A stretch of 64,000 nt of DNA from an uncultured Mediterranea sp. (lineage in GTDB: Bacteria; Bacteroidota; Bacteroidia; Bacteroidales; Bacteroidaceae): positions 157,363 to 221,362 of the forward strand of contig CALZEQ010000001.1 of assembly GCA_945641355.1 (NCBI GenBank). Reading direction: 5' to 3'. Positions 26,628 to 31,909 of this stretch are shown here, piece after piece (within the stretch, counting starts at the first letter, position 1; every line of letters starts with the position of its first letter). A program made the translations under genes and the position numbers. The notes under the pieces were generated by a model that was given only the letters and a program-made list of their open reading frames with translations, made no database searches and was not told the origin of the DNA.

Positions 26628-26640
26628 GACAATGGAGGAG

Positions 26641-27609
26641 ATGAAACGTATACGGATGTTGACGGCAATCGTTTGGGCCAGCTTGAGCCTGTGTCTGCCC
26701 CTATGGGCCCAACATCATACCGTGGAGCCAATCCCTTTCGGTGACATGAACCAGTGGGTAGACCGACAGATTAAGGAATCTGGTATTATAGGTGGGGCAA
26801 CCAAGCATGTGTATGCCATTGCCCCTACTGCTACCGTGACAGACAACAGTGCTTATCGCAACAGGGGTGGGTCGCCCTGGGCCTCGTCCAACGTAATGGC
26901 GCGTGTGATGGGAGTCACCAAGACGAACACCTCCGTCTTCCCCGAGAAAAGAGACAGTGGCTTCTGTGCCCGTCTGGATACCCGAATGGAGAGTGTCAAG
27001 GTTGCCGGGCTGCTGGACATCACAGTGTTGGCGGCCGGTTCCATCTTTTTGGGAGAGACACACGAGCCTATCAAGGGGACAAAGAATCCGCAGAAGATGA
27101 TCAATTCGGGTATCGCTTTTACAAAAAAACCGATTGCCGTACAGTTTGACTACAAGGTGAAGATGTCCGATCGGGAGAAAAGAATCCGGGCTACCGGTTT
27201 CGGTAAGATTGCCGATGTGGAGGGAAAGGACTTCCCCGCCGTGATTTTGCTACTGCAAAAACGGTGGGAAGATAGCAAAGGAAATATCTATGCCAAGCGG
27301 GTAGGTACCATGGTGGTACGCTATTATGCCTCGACAACGGATTGGCGGAACAAAGTGACCTATCCCATTCTGTATGGAGACATCACGGGAGACCCTGCTT
27401 ACAAGGCGCACATGATGCGTTTGCAGGTGGAGGAACGATACGCTGTGAACAGCAAGGGCAACAGCGTGCCCATTCACGAAGTGGCATGGGGAACGGCCGA
27501 TGATGAACCGACCCACCTCATCTTACAGTTCACTTCGAGCCACGGAGGAGCCTATGTCGGCTCGCCTGGAAATTCGCTGTGGGTGGATAATGTGAACTTG
27601 ATTTATTAA
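26641..27609 (+). CDS. Secreted PCMD-domain protein in the sulfonation operon
   Basis: About 322 aa with a signal peptide ending LWAQ. The rest looks like the PCMD family (putative carbohydrate metabolism domain), a beta-sandwich found on exported Bacteroides proteins: SPWASSNVMA, FCARLDTRMESVKV, GSIFLGET, and the closing SLWVDNVNLIY. Function is unknown. It follows the sulfotransferase by 13 nt and so belongs to the operon by position. The ORF track start at 26482 lies within the sulfotransferase and is not credible; ATG 26632, 26641 and 26656 are all possible. Confidence 0.7.
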   Translation: MKRIRMLTAIVWASLSLCLPLWAQHHTVEPIPFGDMNQWVDRQIKESGIIGGATKHVYAIAPTATVTDNSAYRNRGGSPWASSNVMARVMGVTKTNTSVFPEKRDSGFCARLDTRMESVKVAGLLDITVLAAGSIFLGETHEPIKGTKNPQKMINSGIAFTKKPIAVQFDYKVKMSDREKRIRATGFGKIADVEGKDFPAVILLLQKRWEDSKGNIYAKRVGTMVVRYYASTTDWRNKVTYPILYGDITGDPAYKAHMMRLQVEERYAVNSKGNSVPIHEVAWGTADDEPTHLILQFTSSHGGAYVGSPGNSLWVDNVNLIY

Positions 27610-27648: not shown

Positions 27649-27679
27649 TTTGGAGTTATTAAAAAAGTGTCTATTTTTG
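27649..27679 (+). promoter_or_regulatory. Full Bacteroidetes promoter of the YjbH/OmpA module
   Basis: TTTG (27649-27652), 19 nt, TATTTTTG (27672-27679): a perfect consensus promoter. It rules out the GTG start at 27667 and points to the ATG at 27745, giving a leader of about 60 nt. Confidence 0.85.
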
Positions 27680-27744: not shown

Positions 27745-28974
27745 ATGGGAAAGTCCCTAACTACTAAAACAATAGCACGTTATGTGGCGTTCTTGCTTTA
27801 CTGCCTGTCTCCCGTAGGGGGATTTTGTCAGACGGGAGAACTTGTGACGGATGTATTGGTGGAAATGGGATTTGAAAATGTGCGGTGGACGGAAGATGAA
27901 ACCGAACGGGTTTATGTGTTGCAGAATTCAACTTATCGTCTGCAAGGCTTGGGAATCGGTAAAGCGGTGGATGTAATCCAGCGATGGGGCATGCCTCACG
28001 ATAAATCCTGTCGGGTGATTGTGCTTGACAACGGAGTCCCGCAGATTTCGCTCAGCTATCGGCGCACAGCGGAGGTCGATACGCTGTCACTCGTCCGACG
28101 CCAAGCATGGGATGCCAGTTATGAACTGGGAGGTGCTTGGAAGAAGGTGAAACGGGCGAAGACGAAAAATAGCTCTTTGTTTAAGGTTGATGTGCTGGTC
28201 TATCCTCAGTTGTCATTCAGAAACTTGATATTGACTCAAATCTACCAAGTGCTGTTTGACTTGAGCCCAGCTGTTGAGGTCTCTTTCTGGAGTGGTATGC
28301 GTCTGACGGCACAGTTGAAGGTGCCGGTGTATAACGATGGCTATGGGGACTACGAGGGGAAAATTCATCCGGGGCATCTGACGTTGTCGCAGAGTTTCCG
28401 TTTGCCTTATCAGCTGTTCGGAAAGGTGACAGTAGGCTGTTTTAGCGCAGACCGTTTCGGAGTGGACGTTGCACTTAGACATCCTTTTAAAGATGAACGC
28501 CTCTCTGCTATGGTACGTGTAGGGTATACGGGTACCGGCTTTTGGGATGGATTCCGATATCATTATGATACGGATATGACGCTGACATGGACGTTGGGTG
28601 CAGGTTTCTATTGGCCTCAGTATAACACTCAGTTCATATTGAAAGCCGAACAATACCTTAAAGAGGATAGGGGAGTGAAATTTGAAATGATGCGCCACTT
28701 TCGCTATTGTTCAATCGGATTTTATGCGATGAAGGCTAAAGAGGCAAAGGCAAACGGAGGGTTTCGTTTTCAGGTGGCTCTGCCGCCTTATCGATACAAA
28801 CGATATAAGAATCGTTGGCCACGGATTGATACGGCTCCTTCGATGGGTATTATATATAACGCGGGTAATGAACGTTACTATTATAAGGAATATAAGGCGG
28901 AGGCCTGCGATAATATAATCAAGGAGAATAGTTTTAATCCATATTTTATTAAGTCAGAATTGTTAAATTTTTAA
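27745..28974 (+). CDS. Middle and C-terminal half of a YjbH-type outer-membrane protein
   Basis: The 409-aa exported protein (signal peptide about 1-28, ending GFCQ) looks like the second half of E. coli YjbH (698 aa). It has a periplasmic segment (about 30-130, STYRLQGLGIGKAVDVIQRWG, RVIVLDNGVPQISLSYRR), then a beta-barrel portion with LTLSQSFRLPYQLFGKVTVGCF, HPFKDERLSAMVRVGY and closing barrel strands. YjbH is an outer-membrane partner of an exopolysaccharide operon in enterobacteria. The N-terminal barrel half is missing here and is found at 31163-31909. It is the first gene after the consensus promoter, 12 nt before the DUF3869 gene. An AAGGAGGT lies 14 nt before the ATG, unusually SD-like for this phylum. 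Confidence 0.65.
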   Translation: MGKSLTTKTIARYVAFLLYCLSPVGGFCQTGELVTDVLVEMGFENVRWTEDETERVYVLQNSTYRLQGLGIGKAVDVIQRWGMPHDKSCRVIVLDNGVPQISLSYRRTAEVDTLSLVRRQAWDASYELGGAWKKVKRAKTKNSSLFKVDVLVYPQLSFRNLILTQIYQVLFDLSPAVEVSFWSGMRLTAQLKVPVYNDGYGDYEGKIHPGHLTLSQSFRLPYQLFGKVTVGCFSADRFGVDVALRHPFKDERLSAMVRVGYTGTGFWDGFRYHYDTDMTLTWTLGAGFYWPQYNTQFILKAEQYLKEDRGVKFEMMRHFRYCSIGFYAMKAKEAKANGGFRFQVALPPYRYKRYKNRWPRIDTAPSMGIIYNAGNERYYYKEYKAEACDNIIKENSFNPYFIKSELLNF

Positions 28975-28986
28975 ATTATTATTGAG

Positions 28987-29880
28987 ATGAAAAAGATTAA
29001 ATTCTTGAACGGTTTGAAAGCTATGTTCGCTTTTGCCGTAGTTGCATTGACAGGATCTCTCTTCACCTCTTGCGAGAAAGAAGATGTGAATGCAACATTC
29101 CAGTCAAAACCCGCTGAAGCTGTTATCAATGTGGAGGTGCGTGAGTTCTTTACTCAGAGCGTGGTAACCAATGAGGCTACTATTACTTCAGACAAAGGTG
29201 CGGTTGAAAACGGCAAGCTGACTTTGACAGGTAACAAAGACCTGGCTGCTCAAACTGTCAACTTTACTGCTACCTATAAGGGTAATTCCGGTACGACCAG
29301 TGTTACCATTCCTGCACTGAAGGCTGGTACAGTAGCTGAATTTAAGGTGACAATTACTGTTGCTTACCAAGAGCCATCGGAAGACAAGACGCTGGTAATT
29401 GCAACGAAATTAGGTGATCCCGTAATCAAGACTTACAATTTGGGTGATCCCTCTCACAGTCATGCCGATGCCATGTGGATGGAAAACGCTAACGACTATA
29501 TCCTGAGACGTACGTTCACTTATACGAAACGTGACTATTCTAAGGTCATCAAGAACGAATTGGATAGCAGAGTAGATTTCGATTCTTCTGCATATACGTA
29601 TGACAATTCAGAGGATGTTTCTGTAGAGTTCAAGTTCTCTGCTTGGAGTCTCTATCGTGTCTATTATTTTGAGACATCGACTGATGAAATTATGAGCTTC
29701 TCTTATAAGGAAACAGGTGAAGACTTGGGTAAGGTGACCATTGAGAAAGTATATGGTTCTGGTGCTTATTCTGAGGAAACAGCTCTTCCGGGTCATTCTC
29801 ATGAATACGTTCCGGGTCACGGTCATGGTGAACATGGTTATGACGCAAATGCAGGTGGTGGTATCGTAGATCCCGCATAA
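28987..29880 (+). CDS. DUF3869-type lipoprotein with His-rich C-terminus
   Basis: The 297-aa protein has a lipobox ending LFTSC (Cys near residue 29), two beta-rich regions (about 35-130 and 140-260) and a C-terminal tail with many His and Gly (GHSHEYVPGHGHGEHGYD). It matches what I recall as DUF3869, which accompanies OmpA in Bacteroides. The tail could bind divalent metal; this is inference. It is co-transcribed with the YjbH half upstream and ompA 47 nt downstream. Confidence 0.7.
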   Translation: MKKIKFLNGLKAMFAFAVVALTGSLFTSCEKEDVNATFQSKPAEAVINVEVREFFTQSVVTNEATITSDKGAVENGKLTLTGNKDLAAQTVNFTATYKGNSGTTSVTIPALKAGTVAEFKVTITVAYQEPSEDKTLVIATKLGDPVIKTYNLGDPSHSHADAMWMENANDYILRRTFTYTKRDYSKVIKNELDSRVDFDSSAYTYDNSEDVSVEFKFSAWSLYRVYYFETSTDEIMSFSYKETGEDLGKVTIEKVYGSGAYSEETALPGHSHEYVPGHGHGEHGYDANAGGGIVDPA

Positions 29881-29927
29881 TGTGTGTGTTAACTGATTGA
29901 TTTGATAACTTAAAACTTAGAATAAAG

Positions 29928-31085
29928 ATGAAAGCAAAATTATTGTTCGCTGCTGCTTTGTTGGCTGGCGCTTCTGTGGCTGTAAACGCACAGGAAGCAA
30001 AGAACAAATATTATACAGAGAAGGCTTCTGACAACATCTTCATCGGCGTGGGTGTAGGTGGTATGTCTGTATTGAACGGTGGTATGAATACACCGACAAT
30101 GAATGTCAATCTGCAGATTGGTAAGTTGATTACTCCTACTTGGGGCGTTCGTGGTGTCATCAGTGGCTTGTGGCAGAGTCTGGATGATCAGGACAATGGC
30201 TACTTTGTTGAAGGTCAGTCTGAATATCATAAGTATTGCAAGCAGTTCGGTGAAATCAACTTGGATGCAATGCTGAATTTGACTACTTTGTTCGGTGGAT
30301 ACAATCCGGATCGCGTAGTAGACTTCTATCTGTTTGGAGGTCCTACAATGAACCTCTCCTCTGTTGGAACTCAGTTCACGGGTGAGTCTACTGCCAATTC
30401 TTATGTAGTGGAGGAAAACGATGACTTGAAGGCTCGTTTCGGAGCCACTGTAGGTCTGGGCTTGGGCTTCAATCTGAACAAACGTCTCGCTTTGAACGTA
30501 GAAGGTCGTCTGGGTGTGACTCCTTCTATTTTTGGTGATGTCAGCGATTGTCGCAAAGCTGAGGCCACAGCTCGTGTAAACGTAGGTCTGGCTTATACAT
30601 TCGGTGGCAAGAAGTTCGTTCGTGCTTCTAACATAGATGAAGATGCTATCAATGCTGAAATCAACCGTTACAGAAGCGAGCTGGCTAAAGCACAGGCTGA
30701 TTTGGCAGATTGCCGCAATTCATTGGCTAACAGAAAGCCGGAAGTGAAGGAAGTGACGAAGGAAATTGAAAGTGCAGGTCCGTTGGCTGTATTCTTCCGC
30801 ATCGGTAGTGCCCGTTTGGACGACTATGGCAAGGTTAACATCCAGTTGATTGCCAAGAAGATGAAGGCGAACTCTGACAAGAAGTACAAAGTGGCCGGTT
30901 ATTGCGACAAGGCTACTGGTAGCGCTTCATTCAACCAGAAGCTTTCTGAAAAACGTGCTCAGGTAGTTTACGATGCTTTGATTGCTGAAGGTGTTGACAA
31001 GAGCCAACTTGAATGCGTAGGCTTCGGTGGTACAGAGAACATGTTCGGCAAGAACTTCCTGAACCGCGTGGTTATTGTAGAATAA
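29928..31085 (+). CDS. OmpA-family outer-membrane protein
   Basis: The 385-aa protein has a signal peptide (ending VNAQ, residue 22) and an N-terminal eight-strand-type barrel (about 30-230). A helical linker (about 240-275, NAEINRYRSELAKAQADLADCR) follows, then a C-terminal OmpA-like peptidoglycan-binding domain (about 280-385, AVFFRIGSARLDDYGKVNI, AGYCDKATGSASFNQKLSEKRAQVVY). It tethers the outer membrane to the wall. Codons are strongly biased (CGT, CTG, GGT, AAC), as in highly expressed genes, consistent with the abundant Bacteroides OmpA. A strong terminator follows the stop. Confidence 0.92.
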   Translation: MKAKLLFAAALLAGASVAVNAQEAKNKYYTEKASDNIFIGVGVGGMSVLNGGMNTPTMNVNLQIGKLITPTWGVRGVISGLWQSLDDQDNGYFVEGQSEYHKYCKQFGEINLDAMLNLTTLFGGYNPDRVVDFYLFGGPTMNLSSVGTQFTGESTANSYVVEENDDLKARFGATVGLGLGFNLNKRLALNVEGRLGVTPSIFGDVSDCRKAEATARVNVGLAYTFGGKKFVRASNIDEDAINAEINRYRSELAKAQADLADCRNSLANRKPEVKEVTKEIESAGPLAVFFRIGSARLDDYGKVNIQLIAKKMKANSDKKYKVAGYCDKATGSASFNQKLSEKRAQVVYDALIAEGVDKSQLECVGFGGTENMFGKNFLNRVVIVE

Positions 31086-31114
31086 TAGAGAACTATTTGA
31101 AATAGTTTGATTGG

Positions 31115-31148
31115 GAAGAGGGTGCGTCATAACACCCTCTTCTTTTTT
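31115..31148 (+). terminator. Intrinsic terminator after ompA
   Basis: GAAGAGGGTG / CACCCTCTTC, a perfect 10-bp stem with an 8-nt loop, then TTTTTT. It ends 14 nt before the ATG of the YjbH N-half gene, which has no obvious promoter of its own. Confidence 0.9.
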
Positions 31149-31162
31149 CCCGATGAATCTTT

Positions 31163-31909
31163 ATGCGAAATAAGCAACTTCTGATAGCCATCTTTTGTCT
31201 GGTCTCGTCGTATGCAGGGTATGCACAGCTGACTTATGGTACGACCGGCTTGCTTCATGCACCTTCTGCTGAGATGCAGCGTGACAAGACTGTGCTGATA
31301 GGTGGCAATTTTCTGCATAAAGAACTTACTCCTCCTACATGGTATTATAACACTTATAACTATTACCTCAATGTTACCATCCTTCCGTGGATGGAAGTCG
31401 CATATACTTGTACGCTATTCAAGGCGGAGGCTTTGGGCTTGGGTCCCTATGGCTATTCTGGCTTTACCAATCAGGATCGATACTTTTCGCTTCGTCTCCG
31501 TCTTTTAAAGGAAGGCCAGTTCTGGAGGTATATGCCCGCAGTGGTGGTTGGAACGTCAGACCCCTTTACATCCAGCAATACACAGGTGGCACCTACTGAG
31601 GGTAACGGCTATTTCTGTCGTTTCTTTCTGGCAGCAACCAAACATCTCTCTTTGGGTTCGGAAGAGGTTGGCGTTCATCTCTCATATCTCTATAATAACA
31701 GAACTGAATATAAACTGAACGGTGTTGCTGCGGGTATCACCTACCATCCCTCTTTCCATCCCTCATTGCGCCTGATTGCCGAATATGATTCTAAAGATAT
31801 CTCGTTCGGGGCCACTTATTTATTGCTTAATCATTTGCAATTTCAGATAGAGATGCAGCAGATGCGCTATTTCTCAGGTGGCATCGCCTTTAAAATCCAT
31901 CTTCGATAA
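31163..31909 (+). CDS. N-terminal half of a YjbH-type outer-membrane protein
   Basis: The 248-aa exported protein (signal peptide ending GYAQ, about residue 21) matches the first third of E. coli YjbH. It has LTYGTTGLLHAPSAEM (compare the FGGVGLLQTPTARM region), NYYLNVTILPWMEVAYTCT, FSLRLRLLKEGQFW, PAVVVGTSDPF and alternating barrel strands to a final FSGGIAFKIHLR. It stops where YjbH would continue into the periplasmic segment that is instead encoded at 27745-28974. It lies just past the ompA terminator, so expression probably depends on read-through. Its function is unknown and it may be an OM partner of OmpA or of an exported glycan. Confidence 0.7.
   Translation: MRNKQLLIAIFCLVSSYAGYAQLTYGTTGLLHAPSAEMQRDKTVLIGGNFLHKELTPPTWYYNTYNYYLNVTILPWMEVAYTCTLFKAEALGLGPYGYSGFTNQDRYFSLRLRLLKEGQFWRYMPAVVVGTSDPFTSSNTQVAPTEGNGYFCRFFLAATKHLSLGSEEVGVHLSYLYNNRTEYKLNGVAAGITYHPSFHPSLRLIAEYDSKDISFGATYLLLNHLQFQIEMQQMRYFSGGIAFKIHLR

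Follow-up and report, generated by a model that had tools for sequence, protein, structure and literature searches.

A split YjbH/GfcD-type barrel pair around a variable lipoprotein and OmpA in Mediterranea: a candidate surface-display platform

In a 64,000-nucleotide stretch of an uncultured Mediterranea sp. (assembly GCA_945641355.1, contig CALZEQ010000001.1, positions 157,363 to 221,362; hereafter the window), four consecutive genes encode a YjbH-family protein (YjbH-C, gene 1), a DUF3869 lipoprotein (X, gene 2), an OmpA protein (gene 3) and a second YjbH-family protein (YjbH-N, gene 4). YjbH and its relative GfcD belong to the most widespread barrels of the outer membrane (PMC11494523). 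We infer, with a probability of roughly 0.4, that this cassette specifies a two-barrel, OmpA-anchored platform that displays X, a lipoprotein whose body varies among relatives. The reading draws on the position of the break between the two YjbH genes, the co-occurrence of their products across genomes, a constant tail on otherwise dissimilar lipoproteins, and related loci in which whole cassettes appear to be exchanged by inversion.

Two barrels on two genes

Gene 4 matches positions 3-119 of the Pfam YjbH family (PF06082) with an E-value of 4e-12, over the cut-off, while the match of gene 1 to positions 478-596 of the same family (E 6e-4, 19.2 bits) lies under the 24-bit cut-off. The identity of gene 1, weak by Pfam, is settled by profile-profile comparison (hhalign) with Escherichia coli YjbH and GfcD, in which the gene 1 family aligns with YjbH residues 316-653 (probability 86.9, E 4e-6) and the gene 4 family with residues 1-273 (probability 98.9, E 1e-17). 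Compared with each other, the two families have no similarity past the signal peptide. The published model of GfcD comprises a 12-strand barrel (GfcD-N, residues 19-278), a periplasmic domain (GfcD-M, 279-423) and a 13-strand barrel (GfcD-C, 424-698) (PMC11494523; also PMC8592465, PMC9603273). In this model the 13-strand barrel is open laterally and has a plug at its C-terminal end (PMC11494523). Because the hhalign ranges match these limits, the gene boundary is, on alignment, the N/M boundary of GfcD, and each gene encodes one whole barrel. Strand counts in AlphaFold2 models agree: the gene 1 model runs helix-strand-strand-helix-strand-strand and then about 13 strands (predicted local distance difference test score, pLDDT, 62; predicted template modelling score, pTM, 0.55; moderate, with few sequences in the alignment), and that of gene 4 has 12 strands (pLDDT 45; poor, with equally few sequences). 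Confidence in the gene 1 model is too low to show a lateral gate between strands 1 and 13.

A preliminary description of this DNA had recognized two YjbH-family genes in reversed order around DUF3869 and OmpA, each with its own signal peptide, and had read their products as half-barrels. Coordinates, Pfam and profile-profile comparison bear out the arrangement, both parts match the YjbH family as expected, and signal-peptidase-I-type N-termini are visible by eye on both products. For gene 1, the periplasmic segment and the family assignment stand, but what had been called a half is a complete 13-strand barrel, and the split falls between two complete barrels. That the two products combine into one barrel, as their origin in a single E. 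coli chain might suggest, is barely credible, since each gene spans a whole barrel domain, 12 and about 13 strands are predicted, and the published models show two separate barrels; on the hhalign partition we rejected half-barrel co-assembly.

In E. coli YjbH/GfcD, the counterpart of gene 4 is GfcD-N and that of gene 1 is GfcD-M plus GfcD-C; unlike that single polypeptide, the window has two chains from two genes, which stand in reverse order and are separated by the genes for a lipoprotein and for OmpA. The cassette also differs from the group 4 capsule operon gfcBCD, as no homologues of the GfcB lipoprotein or of GfcC were seen in it by Pfam, the intervening genes being those for DUF3869 and OmpA. 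A Foldseek search of the Protein Data Bank (PDB) with the gene 1 model returned generic barrels only, such as FapF R157A (E 1.6e-2), with no match reaching E <= 0.001, and a viral structure library gave nothing useful for the same model. With the sequences of the two YjbH parts as queries, the PDB yielded no real relative, nor did scans of viral contigs uncover any.

Table 1. Positions of the cassette genes and of associated features in the window.
Feature	Coordinates	Strand	Description
YjbH-C gene (gene 1)	27745..28974	+	Signal peptide, periplasmic alpha/beta domain, about 13 beta strands; corresponds to GfcD-M + GfcD-C
DUF3869 lipoprotein X (gene 2)	28987..29880	+	297 residues; lipobox LFTSC, acidic CEKED start, variable body, His/Gly tail to NAGGGIVDPA
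OmpA protein (gene 3)	29928..31085	+	N-terminal beta-barrel (PF13505) and C-terminal peptidoglycan-binding OmpA domain (PF00691)
YjbH-N gene (gene 4)	31163..31909	+	Signal peptide, about 12 beta strands; corresponds to the GfcD-N barrel
Conserved C-terminal tail of X	29788..29877	+	PGHSHEYVPGHGHGEHGYDANAGGGIVDPA; a tail of this kind is present on 69/69 cassette lipoproteins
Position equivalent to relatives' crossover site	27994..28014	+	Degenerate: CCTCACGATAAATCCTGTCGG versus CCGGATAAAAAGCCATG.. (codon-aligned comparison)
Possible Bacteroides -7 promoter element, upstream of gene 1	27672..27679	+	TATTTTTG (TAnnTTTG); read from sequence, consensus from PMC4747536
Terminator-like hairpin between OmpA and YjbH-N	31115..31150	+	GAAGAGGGTG-8-CACCCTCTTC, then T-run; perfect 10-bp inverted repeat
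PCMD-domain protein	26632..27609	+	PF13201, E 1.7e-24

Distribution and possible pairing of the two parts

A survey of the genus covered 101 genomes. Among the 64 of high quality, 44 encode YjbH-N and exactly these 44 also encode YjbH-C, even where the two genes are unlinked (nominal hypergeometric p 5e-17, with shared ancestry ignored). Some cassettes have no adjacent YjbH-N (L154, L157, L164, L174-L176), and the six genomes that carry a cassette of this kind (G208, G032, G174, G149, G185, G206) each encode YjbH-N elsewhere; in G172, an incomplete genome (76% complete) with such a cassette, no YjbH-N was found. Two of the unlinked genes (L184, L185) lie directly after Wza-Wzc and before glycan-synthesis genes, so placed that YjbH-N would connect polysaccharide loci with the cassette. 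Pairing in trans thus seems to be within the capacity of the two parts. The preliminary description had envisaged a joint complex of the parts with their partners; because co-occurrence is perfect, a shared complex is plausible, although not as two halves building one barrel.

Expression of the parts may differ. Because a terminator-like hairpin precedes YjbH-N, production of this protein may be lower than that of the others or set separately. All ten other cassettes of this gene order (type A) that we examined likewise have a hairpin in that position; its stem is GAAGGCGTCTG/CAGACGCCTT or close variants in the relatives and GAAGAGGGTG/CACCCTCTTC in the window.

The division of YjbH is not peculiar to this cassette. 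Across 151 genomes of the family and 396 of the phylum, nearly all hits are separate N-type and C-type reading frames, and the single frame found to span N and C contains one stop; the split is the norm in Bacteroidota. The window's own genome holds a second split pair, in the ordinary N-then-C order, in an exopolysaccharide locus directly after Wza and Wzc homologues. Split pairs of this kind, in the same genome and genus (L004, L177-L182), share the two YjbH parts and a following lipoprotein with an HSGG tail; they differ in that the N part comes first, the genes are adjacent or overlapping, no OmpA intervenes and the tail is shorter, with Wza/Wzc as neighbours in L004. The locus in the window's own genome (L004 4934-13374, contig 6) reads sugar-phosphate transferase, Wza, Wzc, overlapping YjbH-N/YjbH-C and a lipoprotein ending QHSGGTGN. 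Another (L177 4350-11059) has YjbH-N, YjbH-C and a tailed lipoprotein followed by homologues of GldL and GldM, families of the type IX secretion motor, an unusual pairing.

The neighbourhood also has a precedent. DUF940 is, we presume, the former name of PF06082 (YjbH). Part of the account of Natarajan et al. 2015 (PMC4387736) places DUF3869 genes beside OmpA and DUF940 genes. Since the split is seen across Bacteroidota and the neighbourhood was reported in 2015, neither is new, and the earlier statement that no description of this arrangement was known has to be withdrawn to that extent. For the constant tail on hypervariable lipoproteins and for the cassette inversion loci, both set out below, a partial literature search found no description.

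A constant tail and apparently exchangeable cassettes

After its lipobox, which we read from the sequence, X of the window carries a DUF3869 domain (PF12985, E 7.5e-13, 48.9 bits versus a cut-off of 24.5), and it matches chain A of 3KOG (E 5.6e-23). In all 69 cassettes the gene after YjbH-C encodes a lipoprotein, of 163-866 residues, and all 69 proteins have a His-rich, GGG-bearing C-terminal tail, the GGG lying within the last 11 residues in 67 and being followed by a short extension in the other two. The bodies between signal and tail are far less alike: median pairwise identity is 28% for the body of X, versus 63% for YjbH-C, 63% for OmpA and 79% for YjbH-N, and the first 32 and last 25 residues of X stand at 53% and 57%. 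Bodies differ in domain as well (DUF3869, BF9343_1606-like, CBM_4_9, or none), and the tail subtypes HGHGHG and HDSHDSHD occur on lipoproteins with unrelated bodies. Within the window genome an in-frame C-terminal NAGGG is found in X only, and in exopolysaccharide-type loci the lipoprotein after YjbH-C ends in the related HSGG tail in 7/7 cases. The linkage of the barrels to a lipoprotein whose body is hypervariable and whose tail is constant suggests that polysaccharide is not their client, or not their only one; the tail would be a short, mutable tag.

Acidic residues closely follow the lipid-bearing cysteine in 37/38 X proteins. The window X is probably surface-exposed, because its mature start, CEKEDV, fits the lipoprotein export signal C-X-K-(D/E)2-X, a rule defined in Capnocytophaga, the consensus in Bacteroides fragilis being SDDDD (PMC5080379). 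The DUF3869 lipoproteins BVU_4064 and BF1687 (3KOG, 3G3L) resemble X in their His-rich C-termini and OmpA/DUF940 neighbours; the part of their account noted above (PMC4387736) contains neither a constant NAGGG ending across unrelated bodies nor a two-part YjbH or inversion loci. The PDB title "putative pore-forming toxin" has no basis beyond a resemblance in fold. As possible loose analogues we record E. coli YjbE (L198 2907-3149) and GfcA (L199 6440-6745), the short Gly/Thr-rich products of the genes that open the yjbH and gfcD operons, which have only a GGG or GG stretch in common with the tailed lipoproteins and are a bare lead.

The cassette is conserved across many species in two gene orders, YjbH-C, X, OmpA, YjbH-N (type A, as in the window) and YjbH-C, X, YjbH-N, OmpA. 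About ten species or strains carry two or three cassettes facing each other around a tyrosine recombinase gene (PF00589, E 3e-24; loci L093-L098 and L100-L102, with fragments also in L103, L106-L108 and L115), and the recombinase lies between the cassettes in every multi-cassette locus whose interval is assembled. Each locus has one full-length YjbH-C; the others start at about residue 83-85, with neither start codon nor signal peptide. Crossover falls at codons ~83-90 of YjbH-C, where homology begins at CCGGATAAAAAGCCATG or a variant of it, and the site in the multi-cassette species follows the pattern CCGG..AAGCCATG; in a codon-aligned comparison, most loci are internally uniform in its letters, which vary from one locus to another. 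Genomes G205 and G221 have similar cassettes but differ by the inversion of an 8.8-kb segment, one end of which lies at the site (L095 position 4937 versus codon 84 at ~4934). The cassette fused to the complete N-terminus in one of these genomes is the silent one in its counterpart. On this comparison between genomes, related species seem to exchange the entire set of genes through DNA inversion. Contigs of one genome end at the crossover site, and another genome has an N-gap there.

The copy in the window is a solitary cassette with no intact site and no close relative of the recombinase in the genome (best 33% identity); it is not itself an invertible cassette locus (shufflon), and a look for inverted repeats flanking its promoter yielded only weak, chance-like pairs. 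The invertible versions would add this module to the phase-variable surface structures of gut Bacteroides, which may matter for recognition by phage and by the immune system. They resemble the SusC/SusD-type shufflons of Bacteroides, in which a tyrosine recombinase moves silent envelope cassettes behind one expression site (PMC4747536, PMC12632263), but here the cargo is YjbH-C/X/OmpA/YjbH-N. By description only, the S-layer lipoprotein Bt1927 of B. thetaiotaomicron and its barrel Bt1926 likewise form a phase-variable surface lipoprotein with a barrel partner (PMC12578637, PMC12118408), with promoter inversion in place of cassette swapping. The cassette loci were also searched for a GroEL-like neighbour, which belongs to the context of BF3397-BF3403 in B. 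fragilis (PMC4747536); none turned up.

Independence of the four genes, as neighbours with no joint function, could be argued from the hairpin before YjbH-N and from the ability of YjbH-N to lie elsewhere in a genome. We consider it improbable given a cassette that is kept across many species in two orders and apparently moved as a unit by inversion, and given the perfect co-occurrence of the two YjbH parts.

Possible functions: lipoprotein display or polysaccharide export

In the platform that we favour, the 12-strand N-terminal barrel of gene 4 would sit in the outer membrane as a separate chain beside the product of gene 1, with its periplasmic domain and 13-strand C-terminal barrel, a pairing suggested by their co-occurrence. 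OmpA, through its peptidoglycan-binding domain, would tie the assembly to the cell wall peptidoglycan. X would be the client, reaching the cell surface as a lipoprotein with an acidic, export-signal-like start; its constant His/Gly-rich ..NAGGG tail may dock at the surface of the barrels or inside them, its lipid anchor could perhaps be placed through a lateral gate like that proposed for GfcD-C, and its body would be free to vary. In relatives, to judge from comparative sequence, the tyrosine recombinase would bring one entire cassette or another downstream of a single fixed promoter and signal peptide, and the window copy would be a solitary version lacking the means to invert. A more specialized form of this proposal, which we think unlikely, makes the split GfcD-type pair and OmpA a dedicated display or export apparatus that recognizes the C-terminal His/Gly..NAGGG tail, so that unrelated bodies could be exchanged on one platform and, in several species, switched through site-specific inversion, which would vary antigens or phage receptors.

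Several points weigh against the display platform. The platform, the interaction and the localisation of X are all read from sequence; co-occurrence is inflated by shared ancestry; the export-signal-like start means that X may not need the barrels to reach the surface; and in type A cassettes the conserved hairpin parts YjbH-N from the other three genes, so that equal expression is not assured. Orphan and exopolysaccharide-type YjbH genes, moreover, sit with Wza/Wzc and glycan genes, pointing to polysaccharide and not protein. As the main alternative, somewhat less probable than display, the barrels may form a polysaccharide module of the type that the literature proposes for GfcD (PMC11494523, PMC8592465, PMC9603273), exporting or anchoring a polysaccharide that might be lipid-linked, with the lipoprotein as an accessory surface anchor or lectin. 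The paralogous split pair directly after Wza and Wzc homologues in the same genome is consistent with such a role, as are the orphan YjbH-N genes beside Wza/Wzc or inside glycan loci and the carbohydrate-binding domain CBM_4_9 in one cassette lipoprotein; however, neither the window cassette nor any annotated cassette contains a polysaccharide gene, the conserved neighbours are envelope proteins, and the hypervariable partner is a protein.

The two functions could also be coupled, the module anchoring a lipoprotein that binds or assembles with exopolysaccharide, so that display and glycan export are linked. YjbH-N is common to glycan loci and cassettes, and a parallel by description is offered by B. 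fragilis, where an exopolysaccharide operon and an outer-membrane-protein cluster stand under one invertase and are both needed for vesicles (PMC4747536); this genome holds no direct evidence of coupling, and we regard the idea as quite unlikely. The carriage of the barrels on separate genes in Bacteroidota means that each can be deleted, tagged or swapped alone.

The PCMD-domain protein encoded upstream of gene 1 is a frequent neighbour of the cassette and probably not itself a member; in many relatives, its gene flanks the cassette on either side and in either orientation.

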